NCBI GenBank assembly: GCA_013360915.1
Contig: JABWAT010000002.1
Location: 186,001 to 250,000 of the forward strand
Source: Bacteroidota bacterium
GTDB lineage: Bacteria; Bacteroidota; JABWAT01
Direction: 5' to 3'
DNA length: 64,000 nt
The notes below the pieces were generated by a model, which was not told the DNA's origin, ran no database searches, and was given only the letters and a program-made list of their open reading frames with translations. Each line of letters starts with the position of its first letter. The first letter of the stretch is position 1. Shown here in pieces: positions 38,538 through 55,035 of the stretch. Position numbers and translations under genes: made by a program.

Positions 38538-39068
38538 TTACCGGGTATTACTCCGAGATTTCCCGTTAAGTAAATCAACATAGGCGGTATCAATTAATGT
38601 GTCGCTGGCAATCTGCAATTCCTGCAGCAACCGGTTTGCCTCATTCAAACCCGATTCACCGGATTCATCATCGCTCAGTACCACCTCCAGTTCGAGAAAG
38701 TTCCCGAGGGATTCCACCTCGTCCAGATGAACGCGGGTTCGGCCAATCAGGTAGAGGGTGCGTCGCTTCCTGACCCTTCCTGCCGTTCCCATGGACCTTT
38801 CCAGCAAAAGACGCATGCCGTCGGGATCGGGCACCGGAACGATCAGATAATCAGAAGTCGCCGGACCGGTCTGATCGGGGCGTTGGTAGAAAATCAGTTC
38901 ACCGGATCCATCGGCAAAAACCCTCAGTTTCAGCCGGCCGGTGGGTGTGTTGAAAAAGGTATCATCCTGATGAAGGAGGGTGGGGCCGGCCGTGGCCAGT
39001 TGTTCAACCAGCCGTCGGGTCTTTGCCGGTTCAACCAATATGGCTTTGATTTCGATGTTGCGTGGCAT
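38538..39068 (-). CDS. CYTH-domain protein
   Basis: A 176-aa protein that begins PRNIEIKAIL, the ExK-type phosphate-binding start of the CYTH superfamily (class IV adenylate cyclases, thiamine triphosphatases, inorganic triphosphatases). FFNTPTGRLKLRVFADGSGELIFYQR and RKRRTLYLIGRTRVHLDEVE match the following tunnel strands. LGNFLELEVVL is the late Glu-rich strand. It would bind a triphosphate with a metal ion in a beta tunnel. Whether it is a cyclase or a triphosphatase cannot be told. Its start faces the regulatory region of the ilv operon. Confidence 0.82.
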   Translation of the reverse strand: MPRNIEIKAILVEPAKTRRLVEQLATAGPTLLHQDDTFFNTPTGRLKLRVFADGSGELIFYQRPDQTGPATSDYLIVPVPDPDGMRLLLERSMGTAGRVRKRRTLYLIGRTRVHLDEVESLGNFLELEVVLSDDESGESGLNEANRLLQELQIASDTLIDTAYVDLLNGKSRSNTR

Positions 39069-39398
39069 GGGAGTTTGTAATAACCGTGAATAAAGGTCTT
39101 AAAGTTGGAATATACAGAAAAGGAGATAGGAATGGGTGAGATTGGTGTCGCCCGGCCACGGACAAACCCGATGAGTTGTAACCCTGAAACCACTACCTTT
39201 TCATCAATATTAACGGCCGTTAATCCCGTCCCGAATTTTAATATTGAAAAGAGTTGATTCGGAAAACATTATTTTCTGAAATGATATCAAATCCGCATAA
39301 AAGATTGTATTGGCAAGAATCCCCGAATAACTAACGGACTGGAAGCGGTTGAATCGGGGTCGGTCATGAGAAAAAGTGGAAGAAAGTGTTGATTGCAG
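39069..39398. other. Divergent intergenic region, no gene seen
   Basis: This stretch separates the CYTH gene from the ilv leader promoter. Short ORFs on both strands lack ribosome-binding sites and protein-like composition. It contains a 16-bp perfect palindrome at 39209-39224 and a weak GAAAA/TTTTC repeat near 39257-39271. Promoters for the minus-strand genes must lie here but none fits the consensus well. Confidence 0.6.
39209..39224. repeat. Perfect 16-bp palindrome
   Basis: ATTAACGGCCGTTAAT is fully self-complementary and lies between the divergent CYTH gene and ilv operon, about 190 bp upstream of the ilv promoter. It has the form of a dimeric repressor operator. No factor is known to me that reads it here. 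Confidence 0.5.
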
Positions 39399-39429
39399 TT
39401 GACTCTCCGAAGAAAATCCGATATCATTG
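39399..39429 (+). promoter_or_regulatory. Promoter of the ilv-leu-cimA-thr operon leader
   Basis: TTGACT (TTG at 39399-39401), 20-nt spacer, TATCATTG (39422-39429), the same -7 variant as at 16257. Transcription would start near 39433, about 36 nt before the leader-peptide ATG and about 360 nt before ilvB. Confidence 0.6.
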
Positions 39430-39468
39430 CTGAAGAATTTAAACAAAAGCCCTTAAAACGCTTTACCA

Positions 39469-39606
39469 ATGAACCAGACAACCACAGCCACAACTTCACT
39501 GTTCAACACCGGGATTCCGGTTGCTGTTTCTGGTTCCGTCACCCGTCCGACTCTCCTTCTTGCAGGCCTTGTGATTCTCCTTAGCGGTATTATTACCCTC
39601 GGATAA
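39469..39606 (+). CDS. Putative attenuation leader peptide rich in Thr, Leu, Ile, Val
   Basis: A 45-codon ORF in the leader of the biosynthetic operon, behind a good promoter. By my count it has 9 Thr, 8 Leu, 4 Val and 4 Ile, 25 of 45 residues. They are clustered as NQTTTATTS at the start and PTLLLAGLVILLSGIITLG at the end. The operon makes exactly these four amino acids. Leader peptides with such runs control ilv and thr operons in enterobacteria by ribosome stalling. A Shine-Dalgarno sequence is not obvious. The C-terminal half is also hydrophobic enough to be a membrane helix, so a small membrane protein is the alternative. Confidence 0.65.
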   Translation: MNQTTTATTSLFNTGIPVAVSGSVTRPTLLLAGLVILLSGIITLG

Positions 39607-39791
39607 ATCTCCGGTCAGCCTGCATCGCCACCCAAACCAAAACCAAACGATGATAGGCTGAAAAAGGCCTCCTGATTAGGTGTTGGAAGATGACCCACGG
39701 ATTCAATTTTTTGGTCTGAGGGATGGTTGGTTATCCGGTTTGCCGGAAGCTGCCTTCAGACCCTTTATGAATGATAAGGATGGAGACGGCA
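39607..39791 (+). promoter_or_regulatory. Structured leader between the peptide and ilvB
   Basis: Several pairings are visible. CAGCCT (39615-39620) pairs with AGGCTG (39655-39660), extended by CATCG/CGATG inside. AAGGCCT (39664-39670) can pair with AGGCCTT inside the leader ORF (39564-39570), right after its Leu-Leu-Leu codons. GGTCTGA (39713-39719) pairs with TCAGACC (39756-39762) around a small CCGG hairpin. A run of six T lies at 39707-39712, but I find no strong stem directly before it, so a classical terminator is not demonstrated. Confidence 0.45.
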
Positions 39792-41519
39792 ATGTTTGAT
39801 ACCAGCAAACCCTTGAATGGGGCCGAAATTTTCCTCGAATCGCTGCGCCGGGAAGGCGTGGATCTGATCTTCGGATATCCGGGCGGCGCAGTCCTCGGGA
39901 TCTACGAAAAGCTGTACGACTGCGATTTCCTCACACACATACTCGTCAGGCATGAACAGGGTGCCACACACATGGCCGAAGGCTATGCCAAAGCTACCGG
40001 AAAAGCCGGTGTGGTGCTCGTTACTTCGGGTCCGGGAGCAACCAATACGGTGACCGGCATTGCCGATGCGTATATGGATTCAATTCCAATGGTCGTGTTT
40101 ACCGGTCAGGTCCCATCGAAACTGATAGGAAACGATGCCTTTCAGGAAGCCGATATTGTGGGAATCACCCGTCCGATCACCAAGCATAACTTTCTCGTGC
40201 GCGATGTGAATGACCTGGCCCCAACCATTAAGAAGGCCTTTTACATCGCTCAATCTGGTCGCCCGGGTCCGGTTCTGGTCGATATGCCCAAGGATATGCT
40301 GGCCGCAACCACGATGTTCAATTATCCCGAATCGGTCGATATCCGCGGGTACAAGCCGACGTATAACGGTCACTCCCAGCAAATCAAAAAAGCTGCCCAG
40401 GTGCTCCGAAAGGCCAAGCGCCCGTTGCTGTATGTGGGTGGAGGCGTGATTTCATCGGGTGCTCACCGCGAGCTGCGCATGCTTGCCAAGGAAGCCGGCC
40501 TTCCTGTCACCATGACTCTTCATGGTCTGGGAGCCTTTCCCATGACCGATTCTCAGTCACTGGGTATGCTGGGCATGCATGGCACGTTTTGGGCCAACAT
40601 GGCCACCGATCACTGCGATGTTCTGGTTTCGCTCGGTGCCAGGTTTGATGACCGCGTAACCGGTAAAGTGGAAACCTTTTCTGCTCAATCCTACAAGATC
40701 CATGTCGATATCGATCCGTCTGCCATTGATAAAAATGTGGTGGTTGACCTGCCCATTGTGGGGGACCTGAAAATGGTTCTTGCCGAACTGCTGACCGAAT
40801 TAACCGAGAGTCCGATTAAAACAGACTATTCTGAATGGTGGGCTCAGTTAAACGAGTGGCGTAATAACTGTCCGCTGGATTATGAAAAGCAGGATGGACG
40901 CCTGAGGGCACAGTTCGTTCTGGAACGCATTTCTGCCAAGACCAACGGTGAAGCTGTGGTGGTAACCGATGTGGGTCAGCATCAGATGTGGACCACTCAG
41001 TTTTATCAGTTCAACAATCCGCGCTCACATATAACCAGCGGCGGTTTGGGAACCATGGGTTTTTCTGTTCCGGCTGCCATTGGTGCCGCTTTTGCCATCA
41101 AAGACCGTCCGGTGGTTTCTATCTCTGGTGATGGCGGATTCCAGATGAATATGCAGGAGTTGATTACAGCCGCCCATCACAATCTGCCGGTGAAGTTTAT
41201 CATCATCAATAACAGTTTTCTTGGCATGGTCCGTCAGTGGCAGGATCTGTTTTACAAGGAAAAGTTCAGTTTTACCAACCTGGGTCCATCGAATCCTGAT
41301 TTCGTCAAAGTGGCCGAGGCCTTTAACTGTGTGGGCATGTCGACCGACAATCCGGCCGAAGTGGATTCGCTTCTCGATCGTGCCATGGCCATCAATGACA
41401 AACCGGTTCTGGTCGAATTCAAAGTGGTGAAAGAGGAGATGGTGTTCCCGATGGTGCCATCCGGCGGGTCGGTGAAAGACATGATGGTTCGGCCACTCGA
41501 TCCCAATCACCTTTTGTAA
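39792..41519 (+). CDS. ilvB: Acetolactate synthase large subunit
   Basis: A ThDP- and FAD-dependent enzyme of 575 aa from the ATG at 39792; GGAG at 39783-39786 supports this start over ATGs at 39771 and 39780. It makes acetolactate for Val/Leu and acetohydroxybutyrate for Ile. Hallmarks: DLIFGYPGGAVL, VRHEQGATHMAEGYAKATGK with the catalytic Glu, GRPGPVLVDMPKD, LGARFDDRVTGK, and the ThDP motif GDGGFQMNMQELITAAHHNLPV ending in NN. It is the first structural gene of the operon and is followed after 12 bp by its regulatory subunit. Confidence 0.96.
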   Translation: MFDTSKPLNGAEIFLESLRREGVDLIFGYPGGAVLGIYEKLYDCDFLTHILVRHEQGATHMAEGYAKATGKAGVVLVTSGPGATNTVTGIADAYMDSIPMVVFTGQVPSKLIGNDAFQEADIVGITRPITKHNFLVRDVNDLAPTIKKAFYIAQSGRPGPVLVDMPKDMLAATTMFNYPESVDIRGYKPTYNGHSQQIKKAAQVLRKAKRPLLYVGGGVISSGAHRELRMLAKEAGLPVTMTLHGLGAFPMTDSQSLGMLGMHGTFWANMATDHCDVLVSLGARFDDRVTGKVETFSAQSYKIHVDIDPSAIDKNVVVDLPIVGDLKMVLAELLTELTESPIKTDYSEWWAQLNEWRNNCPLDYEKQDGRLRAQFVLERISAKTNGEAVVVTDVGQHQMWTTQFYQFNNPRSHITSGGLGTMGFSVPAAIGAAFAIKDRPVVSISGDGGFQMNMQELITAAHHNLPVKFIIINNSFLGMVRQWQDLFYKEKFSFTNLGPSNPDFVKVAEAFNCVGMSTDNPAEVDSLLDRAMAINDKPVLVEFKVVKEEMVFPMVPSGGSVKDMMVRPLDPNHLL

Positions 41520-41531
41520 GAAAGAATTCCG

Positions 41532-42047
41532 ATGAAACGAATTATATCCGTTTGGGTAGAAAACAAATTTGGTGCGCTCAACCGTGTTGCCACGATGTTC
41601 AGCGGCCGTGGGTTTAATATTCACTCCATTTCAATCGGGGTGACCGATGATCCCGATGTCTCGAGAATGACCATTGTCACCTCGGGAGATGACAAAATTC
41701 TCGACCAGATCATTAAACAACTGAACCGGCTGATTGATACGATCAAGGTGGTTGATCTCTCGGCTGAAAAATTTGTGGCCAGGGAACTGGCTCTGATCTC
41801 GGTTTCCTATACGAAATCGACCCGGTCCGAAATTCTGGATCTGGTTGAAATCTTTCAGGGGAAAGTGGTGGATATCACCCATAAAATCCTCACCATGGAA
41901 GTCTCGGGTCCGCCCGAAAAAATCGAAGCGCTGATCAACCTGTGCATCCAGTACGGTATTCGTGAAATTGCGCGGTCGGGTCTGGTCGCCATCAAACGGG
42001 AAGAACAGGAAGTTCACCGGGTGGCAAAAGAAGTTTTGATGTCATAA
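41532..42047 (+). CDS. ilvN: Acetolactate synthase small (regulatory) subunit
   Basis: A 171-aa regulatory subunit. The N-terminal ACT domain ([22 protein letters not shown], then [15 protein letters not shown]) binds valine in relatives and gives feedback inhibition. The C-terminal domain (about 80-165) contains [23 protein letters not shown], typical of IlvH/IlvN long forms. It joins IlvB in the holoenzyme. The gene lies 12 bp after ilvB and 20 bp before ilvC. Confidence 0.95.
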
Positions 42048-42067
42048 AAAAACGAAGGAACAGTCAC

Positions 42068-43084
42068 ATGAAAGTATATTATAACGACGATGCCTCTCTG
42101 GCCCATCTGGAAGGCAAGAAAATTGCGGTGATCGGATTCGGGAGCCAGGGACACGCCCATGCACTGAACCTTCACGATTCCGGACTGACGGTGGCCGTTG
42201 GTCTGCGTAAATCGAGCGCGACATGGGCCAAAGCCGAGGCTACCGGTGTCGCTGTAAAAACCGTTTCTGAAGCGGCTGCCTGGGCCGATGTTATCATGAT
42301 TCTGTTGCCCGATCAGGCTCAGAAGGCCGTATATGATGCCGAAATCGAACCGCATCTGACGGCAGGAAAAACTCTGGCTTTTGCCCATGGTTTCAACATC
42401 CACTACAAGGTGATCACCCCCCCTTCCAACGTCAATGTCATCATGATTGCTCCGAAAAGTCCGGGACATCTCGTTCGCCGGTCTTATCTGCAGGGCAACG
42501 GTGTACCTTGTCTGATCGCCATCTATCAGGATGCAACCGGTACGGCAAAAGATCTGGCACTGGCCTGGGCAAAAGGACTGGGCGGCACTCATGCCGGGGT
42601 TCTGGAAACCTCTTTCAAAGAAGAAACTGAAACCGATCTTTTTGGTGAGCAAGCCGTACTCTGCGGCGGATCTGCAGAACTGATCAAAGCTGGTTTTGAA
42701 ACGCTGGTTGAAGCCGGCTACTCACCTGAACTGGCTTATTTCGAGTGTATGCACGAGCTGAAACTGATTGTGGATCTCTATTTTGAGGGCGGATTAAGCC
42801 GGATGAATTATTCGGTTTCTGATACGGCCGAATATGGCGGAATGACCCGTGGTCCGCGGCTGATCACCTCGGATACCAAGAAGGAAATGAAAAAGATCCT
42901 CGAAGAAATTCAATCGGGACAATTTGCCCGCGAGTTTCTGACCGAACTGAATGGCAGCAAAGCCAATTTTGAAAAACTTCGCAAATCGAACCGCGAGCAT
43001 GCCATTGAACGGGTGGGTGAAAAATTGCGGTCCATGATGAGCTTCCTTTTCAAAAAGGACAAGCGCGAAGAAATCGGCGTGTAA
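42068..43084 (+). CDS. ilvC: Ketol-acid reductoisomerase (class I)
   Basis: A 338-aa NADPH- and Mg-dependent enzyme converting acetolactate and acetohydroxybutyrate to dihydroxy acids. Residues 18-32 contain [17 protein letters not shown], the Rossmann motif; LRKSSATW follows in the cofactor-specificity loop. [39 protein letters not shown] with metal-binding Asp and Glu, and [12 protein letters not shown] are all present. The short length marks class I. The next enzyme of the pathway, IlvD, is not in the operon. Confidence 0.97.
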
Positions 43085-43115
43085 CGAATTAACCAGTAGC
43101 AGACGGAGATTGTCA

Positions 43116-44222
43116 GTGTCAGTATTAAATGCAAAAGTGGTGGTTCTGGCCGGTGATGGAATCGGTCCGGAAGTCATCGAGGCCTCCATTCCGGTCATGA
43201 TGGCCGTCGGTAAACAGTACGGTGTCCGGTTTGAGCTGGAAAACCATCTCTTTGGAGGTTGTTCCATCGATAAACACGGTGTTCCGGTAACCGAAGAAAC
43301 CCTCAACGCGTGTCTGAAAGCCGATGCGGTTCTGCTGGGAGCTGTTGGCGGACCGAAATGGGAGTCGATGCCTCACCACCTGAAACCCGAAGCCGGCCTT
43401 CTTAAACTCAGAAAGGTCCTCGGACTGTATGCGAATCTCCGTCCTGCCAAGGTTTACACCTCCCTGGCCGGAACCTCAACCCTGCGTGAATCGGTGATTA
43501 AGGGTGTTGATCTGGTGGTCGTTCGTGAACTGACCGGCGGGTTGTACTTCGGTGAGCCCCGCGGTCTCGATGAAAATCGTGGCTGGAACACCATGGCCTA
43601 TACCCGCGAGGAAATTGTCCGGATTGCCAGGAATGCCTTTGAACTGGCCAAAAGCCGGCGGCATATTCTCACCTCGGTCGATAAGGCCAATGTGCTGGAA
43701 GTGTCGCAATTCTGGCGTCAGGTGGTGAATGAAGTTGCCAAAGACTATCCGATGATCCGGGTGAACCACATGTATGTCGATAATGCTGCCATGCAACTGG
43801 TCCGGAATCCGGGTCAATTTGATGTGATGCTGACCGAAAACATGTTTGGTGATATCCTCAGTGACATTGCCTCCATGATTCCGGGAAGTCTCGGCATGCT
43901 TCCATCTGCCAGTCTGGGAGATAAACATTCTCTGTATGAACCGGTTCATGGATCGGCTCCTGACATCGCCGGGCAGGATAAAGCCAATCCGATTGCAACC
44001 ATTGCCTCGATTGCCATGATGTTTGACCGCACGTTTAAAATGCACATGGCCGCCGACAGTTTAAATCAGGCCATTGAACGGGTTCTGAATGCCGGATTCC
44101 GTACCGCAGACATTGCCGCCCCCGGAGAGAAGACCGTGGGTACCAGGGAAATGGCAGCCAAAATTGAAGCCTCGTTTTCCGACGTGTATGCCGATCAACC
44201 ATTCGGCTTTGCAGTCGGCTGA
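43116..44222 (+). CDS. leuB: 3-isopropylmalate dehydrogenase
   Basis: A 368-aa NAD-dependent enzyme for the third leucine step. [10 protein letters not shown] is the N-terminal motif, [22 protein letters not shown] carries substrate-binding residues, and [29 protein letters not shown] holds the metal-binding Asp residues and nicotinamide contacts. [18 protein letters not shown] closes the active site. I chose the GTG at 43116, 7 nt after GGAG, over a TTG at 43110. Note that leuB precedes leuA here. Confidence 0.95.
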
Positions 44223-44239
44223 AAGAAAGGAAACCATCC

Positions 44240-45835
44240 ATGCCGGAACGGATTATCATTTTCGACACCACCCTGCGTGACGGCGAACAGTCACCGGGTG
44301 CATCGCTTTCTGTCTTTGAAAAAGTGGAAATTGCCAGACAACTCGAGCGATTGGGTGTGGATGTGATCGAAGCCGGATTTCCGGTTTCCTCTCCTGCACA
44401 GTTCGAAGCCGTTCAGCGGATTTCCGATCAGTCCACAGCGATCATTGCTGGTCTTTGCCGTGCTGTTGAAAAAGACATCCGGACAGCCTATGAGGCGTTA
44501 AAGAATGCACGGCGCAAGCGGATCCATACCTTCACCAGTACTTCCGACATCCATATTCTCGGAAAATTTGGTGATCCGCGGTATGGTCAGACCCTGGCCG
44601 AAAAGCAGCAAACCATTCTTAAGATGACGGTTGATGCCGTTTCCTTTGCCAAAACCCTCACCGCCGATGTGGAATATTCTGCCGAAGATGCCGGCCGTAC
44701 CGATATCGGATATCTGGCCGAGGTGATTGAAGCAGCGATTGCAGCAGGTGCCACCACGGTAAACATCCCCGATACCACCGGTTATTGCATGCCAGAGGAG
44801 TTCGGAAAGAAAATCGCTGAACTGAAACGTCGGGTTAAAAACATCGATCAGGCGGTTATCAGCGTCCACTGTCATAATGACCTCGGGCTGGCCGTAGCCA
44901 ATTCGTTGTCGGCTGTTCTGAATGGGGCCCGTCAGGTCGAATGTACCATCAACGGAATCGGTGAGCGGGCAGGAAATGCCTCGATGGAAGAAATCGTCAT
45001 GGCACTTACCGTCCGGAAAGATCTCTGGCCGTTTGAAACCGGTATTCAGACCCAGGAAATCTACAATTCCAGTAAAATGGTCTCTGCATACACCGGCCTG
45101 ATCGTCCAGCCGAATAAGGCCATTGTGGGCGACAATGCGTTTGCTCATGAATCGGGCATTCATCAGGATGGCGTTCTGAAAAACCGTCAGACTTACGAAA
45201 TCATGACTCCTGAAACGGTTGGGGTACTAAAAAATAAAATTGTTCTTGGCCGTCACTCGGGCCGTCACGGACTTGTGGCCCGGATCCGCGCCATGGGTTT
45301 CGAAATGACCCCCACGGAATTGGACGACCTGTATGAAAAATTCCTCGATGTCGCAGACAAGAAAAAGGAAGTGTATGATGACGATCTGCGGGTGCTGATG
45401 GGTGAGGAAGTACAGCGTCACCATGAGGAACAGGTTTATGATCTGGATTACCTGCAGGTGACACTCGGGTCCACCATTGTTCCGACGGCAACCGTCAGGA
45501 TCAAAACGAAGAACGGTCCGGTTCAGGCCAGTTCGGCAGGTGATGGTCCCGTTGATGCAGCATTTAAAGCACTGGAAGCAGCCACCGGTACTTCATTGAA
45601 AATCGAAAATTATCAGGTCCGGTCGGTTACCAGCGGGCGCGATGCCATGGGTGAGGTCATCTTACGGATCAGAGACAATGGAAAAACGTTCACTGGAAAG
45701 GGCACTTCGACCGATATTATTGAGGCCAGTGTCCGGGCTTATCTGAATGGATTGAATCATAAATTTCATATGGAAAAAATGTGGCAGGACCAAAATGCCA
45801 CGGTTTGGCAGGATAATCCGGTCCGGTTTGTTTAA
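44240..45835 (+). CDS. leuA: 2-isopropylmalate synthase
   Basis: A 531-aa enzyme joining acetyl-CoA and 2-oxoisovalerate, the committed leucine step. IFDTTLRDGEQSPGASLS is the LeuA start with metal-binding Asp. VHCHNDLGLAVANSL carries the two metal-binding His residues, and GIGERAGNASMEEIVMAL follows. The C-terminal ~130 residues (after QVTLGSTIVPTATVRIKT) are the dimeric allosteric leucine-binding domain, so feedback inhibition by leucine is likely. The start has GAAAGGAAA upstream and lies 17 bp after leuB. Confidence 0.95.
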   Translation: MPERIIIFDTTLRDGEQSPGASLSVFEKVEIARQLERLGVDVIEAGFPVSSPAQFEAVQRISDQSTAIIAGLCRAVEKDIRTAYEALKNARRKRIHTFTSTSDIHILGKFGDPRYGQTLAEKQQTILKMTVDAVSFAKTLTADVEYSAEDAGRTDIGYLAEVIEAAIAAGATTVNIPDTTGYCMPEEFGKKIAELKRRVKNIDQAVISVHCHNDLGLAVANSLSAVLNGARQVECTINGIGERAGNASMEEIVMALTVRKDLWPFETGIQTQEIYNSSKMVSAYTGLIVQPNKAIVGDNAFAHESGIHQDGVLKNRQTYEIMTPETVGVLKNKIVLGRHSGRHGLVARIRAMGFEMTPTELDDLYEKFLDVADKKKEVYDDDLRVLMGEEVQRHHEEQVYDLDYLQVTLGSTIVPTATVRIKTKNGPVQASSAGDGPVDAAFKALEAATGTSLKIENYQVRSVTSGRDAMGEVILRIRDNGKTFTGKGTSTDIIEASVRAYLNGLNHKFHMEKMWQDQNATVWQDNPVRFV

Positions 45836-45867
45836 ACGGATTGGTCAACTTAAAGAAGGGAACGACT

Positions 45868-47163
45868 ATGGGAATGACAATCACCGAAAAAATCCTGGCT
45901 AAATCGGCCGGACGGGACCGTGTCACACCGGGTGAATCGGTGTGGCTGAATGTCGATGTACTGATGACGCATGATGTGTGTGGTCCTCCCACCATCGATA
46001 TCTGGAAACGGGAATTTGGTCCCGAAGCCAAAATCTGGGACAAGGAAAAGCTGGTCATTTTCCCTGACCACTACATTTTCACCGCAAACTCACACGCAAA
46101 CGCCAATGTGAACAAATTGCGTCAGTTTGCCGCCGAGTATAACCTGCCGAACTATTACGATGTAGGAACCAGCCGCTACAAGGGTGTTTGCCACATGGCG
46201 CTGGCAGAAGAAGGATACAACGTTCCCGGTACCGTTCTTTTTGGTACCGATTCACACACCTGTACATCGGGTGCTTTCGGAATGTTTTCGACCGGTGTCG
46301 GAAATTCGGATGCTGCCTTTATTCTGGGAACCGGAAAGATTTGGGAAAAAGTCCCGGAATCGATGCTGTTCACCTTCGATGGAGAAATACCTCCTTACCT
46401 GACTGCAAAAGACATGATTCTGCAGATCATCGGGGATATCACCACCGACGGAGCCACCTACCGGGCCATGGAATTCAATGGTGATGGCGTGATGTCTCTT
46501 CCAATCAGTGAGCGGATGACGTTAACCAACATGGCGATTGAAGCGGGTGGAATGAACGGAATCATCGAAGCCGATGCACTGACTGAAGCGTATGTGAAGG
46601 CCCGGACATCGAAACCGTATGAAATTTTCAAATCGGATCCCGATGCAAAATATGTGGCCAAATACCGTTACAACCTGGCCACCATGGAACCACTTGTTGC
46701 CAAACCACACAGTCCGGATAACCGCGATACGGTCCGTAATGTTCAGGGAACGAAACTGACGAAATGTTACATCGGTTCCTGCACAGGTGGCAAACTCGAA
46801 GATTTCATCTTCGCTGCCCGTCTGCTGTTCGGCCAGACAGTAAAGGTTCCGACCTTCCTCGTTCCGGCCAGTACCTGGGTCGATTCTCAACTGGATGTTG
46901 AAACCGTCAATGGGGTTTCCCTGCGTGAAATCTTCCAGAAGGCGGGTTGTATCATGGGTGAATCAAGTTGTGCAGCCTGTCTGGGCGGACCTTCCGATAC
47001 CTTCGGACGGGCCCAGGATCAGGAGGTGATCATTTCCACCACCAACCGGAATTTTCCGGGACGGATGGGTAGTAAAAAATCGTCGGTTTATCTGGCTTCT
47101 GCGCTCACCGTTGCTGCGTCTGCACTGACGGGTGTCATAACCGATCCACGTGATGTGATGTAA
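45868..47163 (+). CDS. leuC: 3-isopropylmalate dehydratase large subunit
   Basis: A 431-aa [4Fe-4S] aconitase-family subunit. The frame is open from a TTG at 45841, but GAAGGG at 45855-45860 fits the ATG at 45868. FPDHYIFTANSHANANVNKLR, GTDSHTCTSGAFGMFSTGVG and the cluster ligands (Cys in KCYIGSCTGGKLED, then Cys-x2-Cys in ESSCAACLGGPSD) are present. It is shorter than the enterobacterial LeuC (about 466 aa) and nearer the HacA/archaeal-type length. It pairs with leuD 17 bp downstream. Confidence 0.94.
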   Translation: MGMTITEKILAKSAGRDRVTPGESVWLNVDVLMTHDVCGPPTIDIWKREFGPEAKIWDKEKLVIFPDHYIFTANSHANANVNKLRQFAAEYNLPNYYDVGTSRYKGVCHMALAEEGYNVPGTVLFGTDSHTCTSGAFGMFSTGVGNSDAAFILGTGKIWEKVPESMLFTFDGEIPPYLTAKDMILQIIGDITTDGATYRAMEFNGDGVMSLPISERMTLTNMAIEAGGMNGIIEADALTEAYVKARTSKPYEIFKSDPDAKYVAKYRYNLATMEPLVAKPHSPDNRDTVRNVQGTKLTKCYIGSCTGGKLEDFIFAARLLFGQTVKVPTFLVPASTWVDSQLDVETVNGVSLREIFQKAGCIMGESSCAACLGGPSDTFGRAQDQEVIISTTNRNFPGRMGSKKSSVYLASALTVAASALTGVITDPRDVM

Positions 47164-47180
47164 GGAAAGGGAAACAGATC

Positions 47181-47744
47181 ATGGAAAAAATCATAACTGG
47201 TAAAGCCTACGTATTGGGTGACAAGATTGATACCGATCAGATCATTCCGGCCGAACATCTTGTCTACAGCCTTTCCGATCCGGAAGAAAAGAAAAAATAT
47301 GGTCAGTATGCCATGTCGGGAGTTCCGCTGAACGAAGCTGGATTACCGGAAGGCAAAAAACCGTTCATCAACGGAGATAACTGGCAATCGGAATACTCCA
47401 TCATCATTGGCGGATCCAATTTCGGATGCGGCTCTTCCCGTGAACATGCGCCCTTTGCCATGCAGGTGGCGGGTGTGAAAGCGGTGATTGCAGAAACCTA
47501 TGCCCGTATTTTCTACCGGAACTGCGTGGATGGTGGTTTTCTGATTCCGTATGAATCATATGAAAAGGTGAATAACCGCATCCGGACCGGAGATGAACTC
47601 GAAGTGGATGTCAAAGCCAATCTGGTTAAAAACCTGACCACTGGCGAAACCATTTTACTGAAACCTCTCGGCGATGTGGTTTCCATCATCGAGGCAGGTG
47701 ACCTGTTTACCTATGCCCGTCAGTCCGGAATGCTGGCCGGATAA
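47181..47744 (+). CDS. leuD: 3-isopropylmalate dehydratase small subunit
   Basis: A 187-aa swivel-domain subunit that completes the LeuCD active site. GKAYVLGDKIDTDQIIPAEH is the LeuD start and GGSNFGCGSSREHAPFAMQ carries the substrate-binding Ser and Arg. The family has no iron-sulphur cluster of its own. It follows leuC by 17 bp and precedes cimA by 9 bp. LeuCD may also serve the citramalate branch, as in other organisms that use CimA. Confidence 0.95.
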   Translation: MEKIITGKAYVLGDKIDTDQIIPAEHLVYSLSDPEEKKKYGQYAMSGVPLNEAGLPEGKKPFINGDNWQSEYSIIIGGSNFGCGSSREHAPFAMQVAGVKAVIAETYARIFYRNCVDGGFLIPYESYEKVNNRIRTGDELEVDVKANLVKNLTTGETILLKPLGDVVSIIEAGDLFTYARQSGMLAG

Positions 47745-47753
47745 GGATCAGCC

Positions 47754-49355
47754 ATGAGTGAACTTTCTCGCATCGAACTGTTCGATACCACCCTGCGTGA
47801 TGGCACGCAGGGCGAGTCGGTCAATGTGTCGGTGAACGACAAACTCATGATCACCCGCAAACTTGATGAGTTCGGGATCGACATCATCGAAGGCGGATGG
47901 CCGGGAAGCAATCCGCGGGATGCCGAGTATTTCAAAAAGGTGAAGTCGCTTGCCGGTCTGAAAGCACGTATTTGTGCATTCGGATCAACGGCCCGCCTGC
48001 TGAACAAGGTGCGTGAGGATCAGAACCTGAATGCGCTTCTGGCCAGTGAAACACCTGTGGTTTCCATTTTTGGAAAAACCTGGCGTCTTCATGCCGATGT
48101 TGCACTGGGAATTACGGCGGAAGAAAATGAGCAACTGATTTTTGAATCGGTCCGGTATCTGGTTTCAGAAGGCCGTCAGGTTGTTTTCGATGCCGAACAT
48201 TTCTTCGATGGCTATAAGGATGATCCAGCCTTTGCGCTGACCATGCTCAAAGCTGCAGTCAGCGGAGGAGCCTCCACACTGGTTCTGTGTGATACCAATG
48301 GGGGAAGTCTCCCGTTTGAGGTGGACCGCATGGTCAGAGAAGTGGTTGCTCAGGTTTCGATTCCCGTTGGAATTCATGCTCATAATGATGGAGAGCTGGC
48401 TGTTGCCAACTCGGTTACTGCCGTCAATGCCGGGGCCACCCATGTGCAGGGAACCATTAACGGTTTCGGGGAGCGGTGCGGCAATGCAAATCTCTGCTCC
48501 ATCATCCCGAATCTGATTCTCAAACTCGGCAGGAAAACCACCCGCCCGGTGGCGCTGGATCAGTTAACAGCCTTGTCCCATTTTGTGGATGAAACGGCCA
48601 ATATGGTGCCGATCAACCGTCAGCCCTTTGTTGGAAAATCCGCTTTTGCCCATAAGGGCGGAATTCACGTCTCGGCCGTTTTGAAAGACGGCCGGTTGTA
48701 CGAACACATTGCACCCGAACAAATTGGTAATCATCAGCGGGTGCTGGTTTCTGACCTGTCGGGGCAAAGTAACATCCGTTATAAGGCCCATCAATTGGGA
48801 ATCAATCTGGATGAGCATCCCGATCTGGCAAGACGTCTGGTCGACCGGATAAAGGCCATGGAATTTAAAGGCTATCAGTTTGACGGGGCCGATGCTTCCT
48901 TCGAACTGCTTCTCCGGACCGAAACGGGTGAATTCCGGCCCTATTTTAATCTGATCGATACCCGTGTTGCGATTTCATCGAACGACATCCGTCAGATTTC
49001 CCACAGTGAAGCAGTCCTGAAACTCGAGGTCGATGGGGAAGTGGAACATACCGCCGCCGATGGAATCGGACCGGTGAATGCCCTTGATAACGCACTTCGC
49101 AAAGCCCTTGGGCGGTTCTATCCTCAGATACATGAAACGGAACTGGTTGATTACAAGGTCCGGGTTCTTGATGAAAAGGATGGAACGAAAGCCAAAGTAC
49201 GTGTACTGATCGAAACGGCTGGTGCCGATTCCTTCTGGGTAACTGTGGGCGTTTCCGAAAATATCATCGAAGCCAGTATGCAGGCACTCATTGACAGTCT
49301 GAATTATAAATTGTTTTGTGACCGTGTTCCTGTCCGCCATCCCGCAGGGGTCTGA
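47754..49355 (+). CDS. cimA: (R)-citramalate synthase
   Basis: A 533-aa LeuA paralogue. LFDTTLRDGTQGESVNVSV is the family start; the GTQGE of this subgroup differs from GEQSP in LeuA. DIIEGGWPGSNPRDAEYF, GIHAHNDGELAVANSV with metal-binding His residues, and GFGERCGNANLCSIIPNL are typical of the long CimA type. A C-terminal LeuA-like regulatory domain is present. It makes citramalate from pyruvate and acetyl-CoA, giving 2-oxobutyrate for isoleucine without threonine deaminase. Its place in the operon, with no ilvA, fits this route. Confidence 0.9.
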   Translation: MSELSRIELFDTTLRDGTQGESVNVSVNDKLMITRKLDEFGIDIIEGGWPGSNPRDAEYFKKVKSLAGLKARICAFGSTARLLNKVREDQNLNALLASETPVVSIFGKTWRLHADVALGITAEENEQLIFESVRYLVSEGRQVVFDAEHFFDGYKDDPAFALTMLKAAVSGGASTLVLCDTNGGSLPFEVDRMVREVVAQVSIPVGIHAHNDGELAVANSVTAVNAGATHVQGTINGFGERCGNANLCSIIPNLILKLGRKTTRPVALDQLTALSHFVDETANMVPINRQPFVGKSAFAHKGGIHVSAVLKDGRLYEHIAPEQIGNHQRVLVSDLSGQSNIRYKAHQLGINLDEHPDLARRLVDRIKAMEFKGYQFDGADASFELLLRTETGEFRPYFNLIDTRVAISSNDIRQISHSEAVLKLEVDGEVEHTAADGIGPVNALDNALRKALGRFYPQIHETELVDYKVRVLDEKDGTKAKVRVLIETAGADSFWVTVGVSENIIEASMQALIDSLNYKLFCDRVPVRHPAGV

Positions 49356-49394
49356 CTCCGTATAATTCCCACCAAAAAACTGAAAGGTATCCGA

Positions 49395-51872
49395 TTGACG
49401 TCCTCTCCCTGGCTGGTACATAAATTCGGTGGCACCTCGGTCGCCAACGCCGACCGGATTGCCAACGTGGCCTCGATTCTGACCAACGATCACAAAGGAA
49501 AAACGGCAGTGGTGGTCTCTGCCATGAGTGGTGTGACCGATGCCCTGCTTGGGTTGCTGGAATCAGCCCGGACCCGTCAGGATGGGGTCTACGATCAGAT
49601 TGATACACTGAGAAAAAAACACCTCGATGCCATCCAGGCCCTGGTACCACCCGATTACCGCACAGAATTGGTGGCCGCCATTCAGGCCGATTTTCATGAT
49701 ATTGAAGACATCCTGCGCAGTGTCTGGATTACCCGTGAATATTCACCCAGGACCCGGGATTTTGTGTCGGGTCTGGGAGAGGTATGGTCGTCCCGGTTTC
49801 TGACAGCCCGTTTCCGTTCACAGGGAATTGAGGCCGTCTGGCTGGATGCGCGTCAGATTCTTGTGGTCGAACCCACCACATCCACACCAAATATTTTATG
49901 GGAACCCTCCCAGAAAAAAATGCAGGATTTTCTCTCTTCTGTGAATCCTGACTGGATGGTCATCACGGGTTTTGTGGCTCAGACCGACGATGGCATTCCT
50001 ACCACATTGGGGCGGAACGGATCGGATTACTCGGGCTCCATTTTCGGAAAACTGCTTCAGGCCGGATCGGTAACCATCTGGACCGATGTGGATGGTGTGA
50101 TGTCTGCCAATCCGAAACAGGTGCCGGGTGCCGTTGTCATTCCCGAAATGACCTATGAGGAAGCCGTTGAACTGGCCTATTTCGGAGCCAAGGTGCTTCA
50201 TCCCAGTACGATGGCTCCAGTGATGGAATCGGGCATTCCCATTTACATCAGAAACACTTTTAATCCCTCTTTTCCGGGAACCCGGATTTTTACCACCTCA
50301 AAAACAGATAACGGAAGTGTGGTCACCGGATTTTCGACCATCGACAAAGTGGCCCTTATCAACGTCGAAGGAACGGGAATGATGGGGGTTCCCGGCATTT
50401 CTGCCCGGCTGTTTTCTGCCCTTCATGAGAAGTCGATTTCGGTTATCCTGATTTCGCAGGCCTCCAGCGAGCATTCTATTTGTTTCGCCGTTCCCGAAAA
50501 TCAGGCCAATCAGGCCAAAAAAGTGGCTGAACATGCGTTTTTTTCCGAAATCCACCATGGAAAAATCAGTTCGGTCACCATTGAGCATCACTGCAGCATT
50601 CTGGCCGCAGTGGGTGAATCCATGTCGGGCAAACCAGGCATTTCCGCGAAGTTTTTCGGGGCACTCGGCAAAGCAGGAGTTAATATCCGGGCCATTGCGC
50701 AGGGATCATCCGAACGGAATATCAGTGTCGTGATTGATGCCGACGAAACCACGAAGGCATTACGTGCTGCTCACTCCGGATTTTATCTGTCGGACCAAAC
50801 CCTGTCTGTGGGGCTGATCGGACCAGGTCATGTCGGAACCACGCTTCTGAACCAGATTGCCTCAGAATCAGCCCGGCTGAAATCCGAATTTGGCATCGAC
50901 ATCCGAATCCGGGGCATCATTTCTTCAAAAAAAATGGTACTCAGCAATCATGGTGTGAATCTGTCCAAATGGAAACACGACCTCGATCAGAGCGAAACCG
51001 AGCCGGATCTTCAGAGTTTTATCAAACATATCCATGCCGATTACTATCCGCACAGCGTCCTGATTGATTGCACGTCCTCTGCAGATATCGCCGGAATGTA
51101 TGTAGACTGGCTTCGTGCCGGAATTCATGTAATCACGCCGAATAAAAAGGCGAATACGGCCGCTTATTCCTATTTTGAAGCCCTCCGGAATGAAGGAAAG
51201 CAGATTCAGAAGCACTTCCTGTATGAAACCACTGTGGGGGCGGGTCTTCCGATTATCGGAACCCTTCGTGATCTGGTTCAGACTGGTGATCAGATCATCC
51301 GGATCGAAGGGGTGCTTTCAGGAACGTTGGGTTACCTGTTCAGTTCTTTCAATGGAAAAGTTCCCTTCAGTCAACTGGTGAAACAGGCGCGGGATTTCGG
51401 ATATACAGAACCCGATCCGCGCGATGACCTTTCCGGAATGGATGTCGTCAGAAAAGTGGTGATCCTGGGAAGGGAAATCGGACTGAAAACGGAAGTGGTG
51501 GATATTCCCGTGGAAAACCTGGTACCTCCATCTCTCAGAAAAGGCAGTATCGAGGAATTTCTCGCTGGTTATTCGGTGTCGGATGAGGCCATGGCAGCCC
51601 GGTATGAGGAGGCAGAGAAGAATGGTCAGGTACTCCGGTATGTTGGTGTGATCGATCCGACTGGCCAGTCCCGGGTTGAACTGCGCACCTATCCGAAGGA
51701 TCACGCGTTTGCCCGTATTCAGGGAAGTGACAACATTGTGGCCTTTACCACCAGACGATATGAGAAACAACCTCTGATCGTTCAGGGACCGGGAGCCGGC
51801 CCTGAAGTAACAGCCGCGGGTGCTTTTGCCGACCTGCTACGGTTATCCGCCTATCTCGGAGGCGTGCTGTAA
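49395..51872 (+). CDS. thrA: Bifunctional aspartokinase/homoserine dehydrogenase
   Basis: An 825-aa fusion that catalyses the first and third steps of threonine synthesis. The aspartokinase part (1 to about 290) has VHKFGGTSVANADRI, the substrate segment DFVSGLGEVWSSRFLTARF and GRNGSDYSGSIFGKLL. Two ACT domains (about 310-465) include NVEGTGMMGVPGISARLFSAL and VNIRAIAQGSSERNISVVI, suggesting threonine feedback. The dehydrogenase part (about 470-825) starts SVGLIGPGHVGTTLL and includes TPNKKANTA and ETTVGAGLPIIGTLRDLV. The start is a TTG with AAAGG upstream. thrB begins on its last base. Confidence 0.95.
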   Translation: MTSSPWLVHKFGGTSVANADRIANVASILTNDHKGKTAVVVSAMSGVTDALLGLLESARTRQDGVYDQIDTLRKKHLDAIQALVPPDYRTELVAAIQADFHDIEDILRSVWITREYSPRTRDFVSGLGEVWSSRFLTARFRSQGIEAVWLDARQILVVEPTTSTPNILWEPSQKKMQDFLSSVNPDWMVITGFVAQTDDGIPTTLGRNGSDYSGSIFGKLLQAGSVTIWTDVDGVMSANPKQVPGAVVIPEMTYEEAVELAYFGAKVLHPSTMAPVMESGIPIYIRNTFNPSFPGTRIFTTSKTDNGSVVTGFSTIDKVALINVEGTGMMGVPGISARLFSALHEKSISVILISQASSEHSICFAVPENQANQAKKVAEHAFFSEIHHGKISSVTIEHHCSILAAVGESMSGKPGISAKFFGALGKAGVNIRAIAQGSSERNISVVIDADETTKALRAAHSGFYLSDQTLSVGLIGPGHVGTTLLNQIASESARLKSEFGIDIRIRGIISSKKMVLSNHGVNLSKWKHDLDQSETEPDLQSFIKHIHADYYPHSVLIDCTSSADIAGMYVDWLRAGIHVITPNKKANTAAYSYFEALRNEGKQIQKHFLYETTVGAGLPIIGTLRDLVQTGDQIIRIEGVLSGTLGYLFSSFNGKVPFSQLVKQARDFGYTEPDPRDDLSGMDVVRKVVILGREIGLKTEVVDIPVENLVPPSLRKGSIEEFLAGYSVSDEAMAARYEEAEKNGQVLRYVGVIDPTGQSRVELRTYPKDHAFARIQGSDNIVAFTTRRYEKQPLIVQGPGAGPEVTAAGAFADLLRLSAYLGGVL

Positions 51873-52855
51873 TGCCGGGATTAAAAACGGAGGCCCTTCA
51901 ACAGAAAGCCTCGGCAATGGCTGGTGAATCGGTGACCGTTTTTTCGCCCGCAACGGTGGCCAATGTGGCCGTTGGATTCGATATTCTCGGTCTGGCCCTG
52001 CATTCGGTTGGTGATACGGTCACAGCTGAAAAGACTGCTGAGCCAGGAGTCAGAATCCGGTCGGTGACCGGACTTCCGCTCGATCTCCCTCTGGATCCTG
52101 CAAAAAACACAGCCGGTTGGGTGGTTATCCGTCTGCTCGAAACAGTGAAACCCGACTTCGGTGTTGAACTTTCGGTTAAAAAGGGAATTCCGCTGGGCAG
52201 CGGCATGGGTGGATCTGCTGCTTCGGCTGTTGGTGCCCTGGTTGCGGTGAATCATTTACTGGAAAAACCGTTGTCGAAACCAGAGTTACTTTCTTACGCC
52301 CTGTTGGGAGAGGAATTGGCCAGCGGAAGTCCGCATGGTGATAACGTGACTCCCTGTTTGTTTGGTGGATTGACCCTGACCCGGAATCTGAATCCGGTTG
52401 ATGTGGTTCAGATACCGGTTCCGGCCAGTCTGATGGTTGTGGTGGTTCATCCCGATTACCGACTGGATACCCGGATGAGCAGGGCGGTTCTGAGAAAAGA
52501 ATTGCCTTTGAAAGATTTTGTTCAGCAATCAGCAAATCTGGCCGGATTTCTGGCTGGTTGCTATACACAGGATATGAACCTGATTGGCCGGAGTTTCCGG
52601 GATGTACTGATTGAGCCCCGTCGTTCGATTCTGATTCCGGGATTTGACCAGGCCAAGTCTGCTGCTCTGGCTGCAGGCGCGCTTGGTTGTTCCATTTCCG
52701 GATCCGGCCCCAGTGTATTTGCATTGGTTCCAGACCGGGCAACCGGTGAAAGTGTGGCATCGGGAATCACGGCCTCTTTTTCCCGCGAGGGAATCACCAG
52801 TTCCTTCTGGATTTCAGAAGTAAACATGGATGGTGCAAAGCGGGTGGTTGCATGA
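51872..52855 (+). CDS. thrB: Homoserine kinase
   Basis: A 327-aa GHMP kinase that phosphorylates homoserine. The ATP-binding motif is KKGIPLGSGMGGSAASAVGA near residue 105, after VFSPATVANVAVGFDILGLA at the N-terminus. SGSGPSVFAL near 272 is the third GHMP motif. The TAATG overlap with thrA gives a first ATG at 51872; a second ATG at 51917 (MAGESVTVF) would remove 15 residues that relatives often lack. It overlaps thrC by 4 bp. Confidence 0.93.
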   Translation: MPGLKTEALQQKASAMAGESVTVFSPATVANVAVGFDILGLALHSVGDTVTAEKTAEPGVRIRSVTGLPLDLPLDPAKNTAGWVVIRLLETVKPDFGVELSVKKGIPLGSGMGGSAASAVGALVAVNHLLEKPLSKPELLSYALLGEELASGSPHGDNVTPCLFGGLTLTRNLNPVDVVQIPVPASLMVVVVHPDYRLDTRMSRAVLRKELPLKDFVQQSANLAGFLAGCYTQDMNLIGRSFRDVLIEPRRSILIPGFDQAKSAALAAGALGCSISGSGPSVFALVPDRATGESVASGITASFSREGITSSFWISEVNMDGAKRVVA

Positions 52856-54114
52856 TTTTCAGAAGCACCCGGCATCAGGCCCCACCCGTTTCCGCCGAAA
52901 AAGCCATTCTGACTGGCCTGGCGCCCGACGGTGGATTGTATGTTCCATCAGGTTTTCCTTCTCTGTCTCCGTTTCCATCCGGAATGCAGTACCCGGAACT
53001 GGCCACCCTGGCCATTCAGCCGTTTTTCAATGAATCGTCCGAAAAGATTGATATCGGTCCGATCATCCGAGACGCATTGAACTTCGAAGTTCCGCTAAAC
53101 TTTTTTGGCAAGGAGACTGCTGTTTTGGAATTGTTCCACGGACCGACAGCGGCGTTTAAGGATGTGGGGGCCCGGTTTCTCGCCGGCGTCATGGCGGCAC
53201 TGAAAAAACCGGGTGATCCGGTAACCACGATTGTGGTGGCCACTTCCGGTGATACCGGCGGAGCGGTTGCCTCTGCCTTTTTCAGAAAGCCCGGATTCGA
53301 GGTCATTATTTTATTTCCGGAAGGAAAAGTTTCTCCCCGTCAGCAGCAGCAACTGACCTGCTGGGGTGAAAATATTTCCTCTTATGCGGTGAAAGGGACG
53401 TTTGATGATTGTCAGCGTCTGGCAAAGGAGGCCTTTGCCACTCCGTCGGTTGCAGGAAACCGTCAACTCAGTTCAGCAAATTCCATCAATCTGGGACGTT
53501 TGTTGCCCCAGATGACCTATTATATTCATGCTTCAATCGGGTTCCGGGCCAGAACAGGCCAATCCCCGGTCATCATTATCCCCAGTGGCAACGTTGGAAA
53601 TGCAGTCGGAGCTGTCTGGGCCCGGGAAATGGGTGCCCCGATCAGAAAAATCGTCCTGGCTGCCAATGCCAACCGGACCATCCCCGATTTCTTCGACACC
53701 GGAAAATGGAGTCCAAGACCCAGTGTGGAGACCCTGGCCAATGCCATGGATGTCGGAAATCCGTCGAATATGGAACGTCTGAGGGACTTGTATCCCGATT
53801 TGTCTCACCTGAAATCCTTCATTGAAACTGCCTCGGTCACCGATGAAGAAATCAGAGAAACCATCATTTCTCATTTTCATAAGACCGGAATGGTGATATG
53901 TCCTCACACGGCAGTTGCAGAAAAAGTGAGACGAACCCGATTTGATGGGGAACCTGCCATGATCGTGGCCACTGCACATCCGGCCAAGTTTGAAACCATC
54001 GTTGAACCCCTCATCGGTCAGCCGGTAGAAATACCCCCGGCCCTTGCCGGATTGTTGCACAGACCGGTTTCAGTCAGACAGATTGAACCTGATCTGCATC
54101 AACTCTTTACCTGA
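52852..54114 (+). CDS. thrC: Threonine synthase
   Basis: A 420-aa PLP enzyme that converts phosphohomoserine to threonine. GLAPDGGLYVPSGFP at the start and ELFHGPTAAFKDVGARFLA with Schiff-base Lys103 are diagnostic of the class with N-terminal extension. TSGDTGGAVASAF, the AVKGTFDDCQRL region, SANSINLGRLLPQ and IPSGNVGNAVGAVWA bind cofactor and substrate. It is the last gene of the operon; a terminator follows the stop within 20 bp. Confidence 0.95.
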   Translation: MIFRSTRHQAPPVSAEKAILTGLAPDGGLYVPSGFPSLSPFPSGMQYPELATLAIQPFFNESSEKIDIGPIIRDALNFEVPLNFFGKETAVLELFHGPTAAFKDVGARFLAGVMAALKKPGDPVTTIVVATSGDTGGAVASAFFRKPGFEVIILFPEGKVSPRQQQQLTCWGENISSYAVKGTFDDCQRLAKEAFATPSVAGNRQLSSANSINLGRLLPQMTYYIHASIGFRARTGQSPVIIIPSGNVGNAVGAVWAREMGAPIRKIVLAANANRTIPDFFDTGKWSPRPSVETLANAMDVGNPSNMERLRDLYPDLSHLKSFIETASVTDEEIRETIISHFHKTGMVICPHTAVAEKVRRTRFDGEPAMIVATAHPAKFETIVEPLIGQPVEIPPALAGLLHRPVSVRQIEPDLHQLFT

Positions 54115-54133
54115 TCGTTTTTACTACCCGCCG

Positions 54134-54159
54134 GCCTGATTGTATCTTTCAGGCTTTTT
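54134..54159 (+). terminator. Operon terminator with embedded rmlA promoter element
   Basis: GCCTGA (54134-54139) and TCAGGC (54149-54154) with five T after form the end of the ilv-thr operon. The loop contains TATCTTTC (54143-54150), a near-consensus -7 element with a T-rich -33 (54119-54122) 20 nt upstream, the likely rmlA promoter. Leader to the ATG at 54175 would be about 24 nt. Confidence 0.65.
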
Positions 54160-54174
54160 ATGAAGGAACCCACC

Positions 54175-55035
54175 ATGAAAGGCATCATCCTCGCCGGCGG
54201 ATCTGGAACCCGTCTTCATCCGCTGACCATCGCGGTCAGCAAACAGCTCATGCCGGTTTACGACAAACCGATGATCTACTATCCGCTCAGTGTTCTGCTG
54301 ATGGCTGGAATCCGTGACATTCTTATCATTTCAACACCCCATGACCTTCCTGGTTTCAGAAAATTGCTTGGTGATGGAACCGGAATCGGATGCCGGTTTA
54401 CCTTTGCCGAACAAGCAGTACCCAACGGATTGGCTCAGGCCTTTGTCATCGGAGAATCCTTCATCGGAAAGGATCCGGTTGCCCTGATCCTGGGAGATAA
54501 CATTTTTTATGGAACAGGATTACAGGAAACGGTTCAGAAATGTTCCCAGCCCGATGGGGGAATCGTATTCGCCTATCAGGTGAGTGATCCGGAACGATAC
54601 GGGGTGGTTGAATTTAATGAGGACGGCAAGGTTCTCTCCATTGAAGAGAAACCGTCTAAGCCAAAGTCGGATTATGCGGTTCCCGGCCTGTATTTCTATG
54701 ACAACTCGGTGGTGGAAATTGCCCGAAACCTGAAACCATCAGCTCGGGGCGAATACGAAATCACCGATGTCAATAATGAATATCTGAAGCGTGGAAAGCT
54801 GAACGTCAAGGTCCTGAGCAGGGGAACTGCCTGGCTGGATACCGGAACCCACGATTCGTTGCTTCAGGCATCAGAATTTGTGCATGTGATCGAGTCACGG
54901 CAAGGGCTGAAAATCGGATGTATCGAGGAAGTGGCCTATCGGAAAGGGTTTATTTCCAAAGAACAACTGTTAAAACTCGCCGATGATCTCAAAAAAAGCG
55001 GATATGGAGAGTACCTTCGCCGGTTGGTCCGCTGA
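54175..55035 (+). CDS. rmlA: Glucose-1-phosphate thymidylyltransferase
   Basis: A 286-aa nucleotidyltransferase making dTDP-glucose from dTTP and glucose 1-phosphate, the entry to dTDP-rhamnose and related sugars. [16 protein letters not shown] is the nucleotide-binding loop. [20 protein letters not shown]-type sequence, ILGDNIFYG with metal-binding Asp, [19 protein letters not shown] and [14 protein letters not shown] are all present. An ATG at 54160 is possible, but AAGGA after it fits the 54175 start. rmlB, rmlC and rmlD are not in the window. Confidence 0.93.

Follow-up and report, generated by a model that had tools for sequence, protein, structure and literature searches.

A predicted ribosome-mediated leader attenuator ahead of a branched-chain amino acid operon with appended threonine genes in Bacteroidota

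The ilv-leu-cim-thr operon in the window, as the whole 64,000-nucleotide stretch of Bacteroidota DNA that was analysed is called here, is very probably controlled by a ribosome-mediated leader attenuator. The leader would read charged Leu- and Ile-tRNA, and in some lineages Val-tRNA, and would thereby determine how strongly the branched-chain operon is expressed; in the class of the window, thrABC would have been added to this operon. This reading was drawn from the sequence and its comparison with relatives, which supplied the promoter, the leader ORF, the composition of the ORF tail, a hairpin (2:3) with fixed spacing from the stop codon and mutually exclusive folds. That a leader peptide controls the operon, as originally predicted, finds strong support in about 60 distinct related loci. 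Against the attenuator reading stand the lack of a U-tract, partial 3:4 switching, a 1:2 pairing that was not significant in the window and the lack of an evident ribosome-binding site for the leader.

In the proposed mechanism, transcription would begin near position 39433 and the leader ORF would then be translated. With a ribosome stalled at the Leu or Ile codons of the tail, region 2 would pair with region 3 and the operon would be expressed. A ribosome at the stop codon would cover region 2, region 3 would pair with region 4, and expression would be lowered. We infer the translation of the leader, the direction of the response and premature transcription termination as the off state; termination would be intrinsic in Chlorobiaceae and possibly Rho-dependent, or brought about by a second hairpin, in the window. 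The features involved are listed in Table 1.

Table 1. Positions of the leader features and of the operon in the window
Feature	Position	Strand	Remark
Sigma-70-type promoter, TTGACT-17-TATCAT	39399-39427	+	10/12 consensus matches
Leader ORF, 45 codons	39469-39606	+	Head 39469-39543, control tail 39544-39603, stop 39604-39606
Region 1, TGCAGGC in ORF tail	39561-39567	+	Can pair with region 2 (39618-39624)
Small ORF-tail hairpin, GGTATTATTACC	39586-39597	+	Identical in all class-mates; folding not significant in the window
Region 2, 5' arm of post-stop hairpin	39615-39627	+	Conserved, covarying
Region 3, 3' arm of the hairpin (predicted antiterminator 2:3)	39648-39661	+	Conserved, covarying
Region 4, GGCCT	39666-39670	+	Pairs with AGGCT (39655-39659) of region 3; predicted off-state hairpin 3:4
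T6 run	39707-39712	+	About 36 nt past region 4; T-rich patch similarly placed in G001 and G002
Strong hairpin before ilvB, GGTCTGAGGG...CCTTCAGACC	39713-39762	+	Window-specific, absent from class-mates
ilvB-ilvN-ilvC-leuB-leuA-leuC-leuD-cimA-thrA-thrB-thrC	39771-54114	+	NCBIfam; order identical in G001-G003

NCBIfam identified all 11 genes of the operon as they had been predicted, thrA being an aspartokinase/homoserine dehydrogenase. The start of ilvB is probably 39792 rather than 39771, judging from a GGAG 6 nt upstream that is found likewise in the relatives. In the interval 52852-55035 of the window, thrC is followed after about 45 nt by a gene for glucose-1-phosphate thymidylyltransferase, rmlA, in the same orientation; G001-G003 show this as well, and rmlA may belong to the operon transcript. 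The gap ahead of the operon (39068-39771), bordered upstream by a cyaB-like gene on the minus strand (38538-39068), had been described as otherwise empty, and no gene was found in it besides the leader ORF with its promoter.

The class of the window is represented here by four genomes, G000 (the genome of the window) to G003, and comparisons with class-mates cover three genomes. A promoter was present where it had been predicted; given there as TTG-N20, it is better read as the sigma-70-type site TTGACT-17-TATCAT, a form conserved in the class-mates, where TTGACA-17-TATACT and TTGACA-17-TATTAT keep the 17-nt spacer (G001-G003). Promoters with at least 10 of 12 consensus matches were found ahead of 35 of 66 leaders, compared to 2 of 66 shuffled sequences.

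The leader ORF starts with ATG and encodes a peptide of 45 amino acids, MNQTTTATTSLFNTGIPVAVSGSVTRPTLLLAGLVILLSGIITLG, and the predicted count of 25 Leu, Ile, Val and Thr residues was verified. When the gap was shuffled with dinucleotides preserved, 1 of 2000 shuffles contained an ATG ORF, 30 codons or longer, in which these residues reached as high a fraction, and an equally rich segment of 18 residues was just as rare (1/2000). The window has, then, a short ORF with control codons for products of the operon. No ribosome-binding site was evident before the leader ATG when the window sequence was inspected by eye, as would suit a chance ORF in an intergenic gap; with such richness reached in a single shuffle among 2000, and with the ORF conserved in all class-mates and in about 60 loci, a chance origin is scarcely credible.

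The codons of the tails were biased. Among 60 leaders, CTA accounted for 33% of the tail Leu codons versus 5% in ilvB, and ATT for 81% of the Ile codons in tails versus 50% in ilvB. Leu in the window tail was encoded by CTT and CTC only, CTG making up 53% in the operon. Biased codons are a known feature of attenuation leaders (PMC1183508). A requirement for unstructured, G-poor RNA may contribute to the bias of the tails.

All three class-mates carried these 11 genes in identical order, with a leader ORF at the equivalent position, and the loss of the ORF in close relatives, which would have spoken against a leader, was not seen (3/3 kept). The tails of class-mates, LPNLLLLVGLTVLLLGIITVN and LPNLLLLVGLTILLLGIITLK, were close to that of the window, PTLLLAGLVILLSGIITLG, with Val/Ile and Val/Leu exchanges among the differences, whereas the heads diverged. 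Composition was conserved while sequence varied, the pattern that had been proposed as a mark of a leader.

Beyond the class, about 60 distinct loci were found in which a short ORF whose tail is rich in Leu and Ile, its stop codon and a covarying hairpin lie ahead of ilvD, ilvB or leuB. These leaders came from Ignavibacteria, Chlorobia, Rhodothermia, Balneolia and Calditrichota. The order ilvB-ilvN-ilvC-leuB-leuA-leuC-leuD-cimA was common to most lineages examined, and in most of the other lineages the first gene after the element was ilvD. In the window's class ilvD is located elsewhere, apart from the operon, and no separate leader was seen ahead of the relocated gene. Two leaders, L002 and L004, have about 200 nt between the switch and ilvB, with a conserved CTGAGG after a T-rich patch and an ATG close behind. 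This CTGAGG is similar to TCAGAGG, which serves ilvD as ribosome-binding site in Ignavibacteria, and is possibly a remnant from the departure of ilvD.

When 395 Bacteroidota genomes were searched with R1, a covariance model built on the Ignavibacteria-type element, it was detected in 32. Every one of the 30 matches examined lay before ilvD, ilvB or leuB, and 29 of them had an in-register ORF; since R1 includes the ORF tail, an ORF is partly expected in matches, while the downstream genes lie outside the model. Some of these 30 loci duplicate earlier finds, and 60 distinct leaders were left after de-duplication. The R1 search of the window's own genome did not find the window copy even at E 10. 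The window's class is too diverged for the model, and R1 therefore gives no proof of the kinship of the window copy, for which position, ORF tail and architecture argue instead.

The 2:3 hairpin, which the original prediction had missed, covaries; its consensus in the large, Ignavibacteria-type group is GGTCAATCCC...GGGATTGACC. Six of its 12 pairs were changed on both sides, and neither this count nor the covariation score was reached by any of 500 shuffles. The distance from the stop codon to the hairpin had a median of 7.5 nt in 60 loci. The pairing of region 1 with region 2 was kept in the large group as well (pairing held in 89.6% of cells, both sides had changed in 3 pairs, and 1 of 500 shuffles matched the covariation score), with GGGATT/AATCCC replaced by GGAATT/AATTCC in L033 and L034 as a compensatory example; in Balneolia TCTAATTTCTGGC pairs with GCCAGAGGTTAGA. 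Comparison of matched and mismatched energies, together with synonymous shuffles, gave significant 1:2 pairing in several Ignavibacteria, in Balneolia and in L026; the same tests were not significant for the window, the Rhodothermus-type loci, L055, L082 and L097. Pairing of region 3 with region 4 over a short loop was possible in most loci with sequences that differ between lineages, and a column-wise 3:4 count on alignment A2 was uninformative because the loop lengths differ. The pairing of 39564-39570 with 39664-39670 put forward in the original prediction does exist, but it rests on the palindrome AGGCCT, and the pairing is lost in G001 and G002.

In many Ignavibacteria the ORF ends in another hairpin, AGCCTA...TAGGCTAA, of which the stop codon is a part; the leader tails of L032, L034, L045, L048, L054, L127 and others carry such a hairpin. 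The inclusion of the stop codon in this hairpin explains the frequent Gly-stop ending of the ORFs; the hairpin may act as a pause hairpin for RNA polymerase or delay termination at the stop. Codon choice favoured folding of the tail in 21 of 59 tails (p < 0.05 against synonymous draws). Thus both RNA and peptide composition shape the nucleotide sequence of the tail, an argument against a plain small membrane protein with the hydrophobic tail as its transmembrane segment. Such a protein would fit the roughly 20 hydrophobic residues of the tails and the recurrence of short motifs such as LLGII. It would not account for a constant Leu/Ile content in a variable sequence, for the Leu codon bias, for tail nucleotides that, in the large group, pair with the post-stop arm or for a position always ahead of branched-chain genes, and we regard it as very improbable.

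The effect of ribosome position was modelled by partition-function folding of the RNA ahead of the ribosome, as equilibrium folds and with 15 nt assumed between the first A-site base and the leading edge. For stalls at codons -14 to -3, the 2:3 hairpin was formed in nearly all of 60 loci. With the ribosome moved to the last codon or the stop, the mean for 2:3 fell from 0.98 to 0.37 and that for 3:4 rose from 0.00 to 0.26 (60 loci), and at the stop codon 3:4 was the majority state in 28 of the 60. The window switched sharply: 2:3 was 1.00 while the A site held the last Gly codon, and 0.07, with 3:4 at 0.97, with the ribosome at the stop. In G001-G003, 2:3 was mostly retained at the stop codon. 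Mutually exclusive helices that overlap the end of the ORF and are chosen by the ribosome were found computationally, then, and more weakly in G001-G003. In this model the folding behaviour of the window is that expected of a ribosome-mediated attenuator.

Lineages differ in the last step of the mechanism. Neither the window nor its class has a U-tract after region 4, or an intrinsic terminator (3:4 hairpin plus U-tract) before the first gene; the original prediction had likewise failed to identify a convincing terminator. Terminator-like 3:4 hairpins with U-tracts were present in Chlorobiaceae and some Ignavibacteria, and a terminator score below -6 was reached in 18 of 66 loci versus 3 of 66 shuffled ones, with the hairpin allowed anywhere in the stretch. 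Candidates for an intrinsic terminator in the window were rejected: one was a chance-level match inside the ORF, and the hairpin at 39713-39762 is missing from the class-mates. The latter has an inner CCGG-TTTG-CCGG and is followed only by CTTTATG. Between 39709-39718, which overlaps it, and the 2:3 hairpin loop (39633-39642) there is complementarity.

A real switch with a non-intrinsic off state is a serious candidate, which we put at somewhat below an even chance: once the ribosome had left at the leader stop, the RNA would be exposed to Rho, or a structure further downstream would act. Region 4 lacks a U-tract in the window's class and in most Ignavibacteria, and the loop between regions 2 and 3 of the window is A/C-rich and G-poor, both in keeping with this; the terminator-like hairpins of Chlorobiaceae and some Ignavibacteria are not. 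This candidate bears on the final step alone and does not conflict with attenuation by the leader, and Rho-dependent release is the main alternative for the off step in the window. More tentatively, the loci may form one attenuator family over Bacteroidota, Chlorobia and Calditrichota. Its switch would, in most lineages, dispense with an intrinsic terminator and act through Rho or a separate downstream step, and in one class the family would have brought threonine synthesis under the control of branched-chain amino acids.

The original prediction went further and proposed that the leader senses four amino acids, with a Thr head and a Leu/Val/Ile tail matching the genes of the operon. Seven Thr codons among the 25 residues of the window head, and thrABC inside the operon, would agree with such a sensor. 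The Thr-rich head is, however, restricted to the window genome within its class: Thr accounted for 7 of 25 head residues there, compared to 4 of 27 in G001 and 1 of 27 in both G002 and G003, although all four genomes have the same thrABC-bearing operon. Thr control codons were accordingly not conserved among the leaders of the thrABC operons in these four genomes. In the tails Thr was below background, at 2.5% of the last 20 codons versus 5.9% in ilvB (60 leaders). The heads of the 60 leaders contained 8.8% Thr and were A-rich and G-poor, a composition that by itself favours ACN, AAN and CAN codons; the window head is the Thr extreme of this broad distribution, at whose end L045 and L061 also have Thr-rich heads. 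Sensing of Thr could still operate in the window's lineage alone, because any stall before the stop, at Thr codons included, leaves 2:3 formed in the window fold. Overall a single four-amino-acid sensor appears unlikely.

Within the sequence stretches read, thrABC was found behind cimA in the window's class only. Since the leaders of other lineages precede ilv-leu-cim operons with no thrABC found behind cimA, the leader signature is older than the thr linkage. The most economical explanation is that thrABC joined an operon which branched-chain amino acids already controlled. This suggests that an old branched-chain leader took over the threonine genes as the operon grew, rather than that a new four-signal sensor arose.

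An Rfam search of the window and 15 relatives matched no leader family, and no T-box, riboswitch or other Rfam leader family was matched before the operon. In several Ignavibacteria genomes (L126, L127, L129 and L132) the leader is flanked by a SAM riboswitch (RF00162) that scored well above the gathering threshold. The element was not found in the literature on leaders in Bacteroidetes, Chlorobi and Ignavibacteria, a search that took in few subscription journals, and an earlier comparative-genomics prediction is possible. The named arms and control codons make the predicted attenuator testable in cultivable Chlorobium or Rhodothermus, and the missing terminator in most members turns the off step into a testable question.

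The ilvGMEDA, ilvBN, leu and thr operons of E. coli are controlled by ribosome-mediated attenuators (PMC1183508), with which the window element shares a short ORF rich in codons for the products, exclusive hairpins that would be chosen by the ribosome and biased control codons. It differs from them in the antiterminator-like hairpin about 7 nt past the stop, with arms GGTCAATCCC/GGGATTGACC in the large group, in a 3:4 hairpin without a U-tract in the window and in having no Rfam family match. The element would work like a classical attenuator but departs from the strict class, as the terminator is missing in the window. The ilvB-II motif and the ilvBNC attenuator of C. glutamicum (PMC10272879, PMC11857589) also have a branched-chain-rich uORF before ilvB, but one of 15-17 residues, with a clear intrinsic terminator and in Actinobacteria. 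The ilvB-OMG and Leptospira ilvB motifs, compared here by description only, are uORFs before ilvB in various phyla, described as rich in branched-chain and Thr codons (PMC10272879). Leaders before ilvB, cys and leuA in Actinobacteria likewise encode leader peptides ahead of amino acid operons; for the cys leaders, which have no obvious terminators, Rho was proposed, and the sections consulted describe no 2:3 hairpin of the window type (PMC1262725). The leader attenuators of the literature consulted here belong to Proteobacteria and Actinobacteria, apart from a few motifs in other groups; the present element is a predicted one for the main branched-chain operon in several lineages of Bacteroidota and their neighbours.
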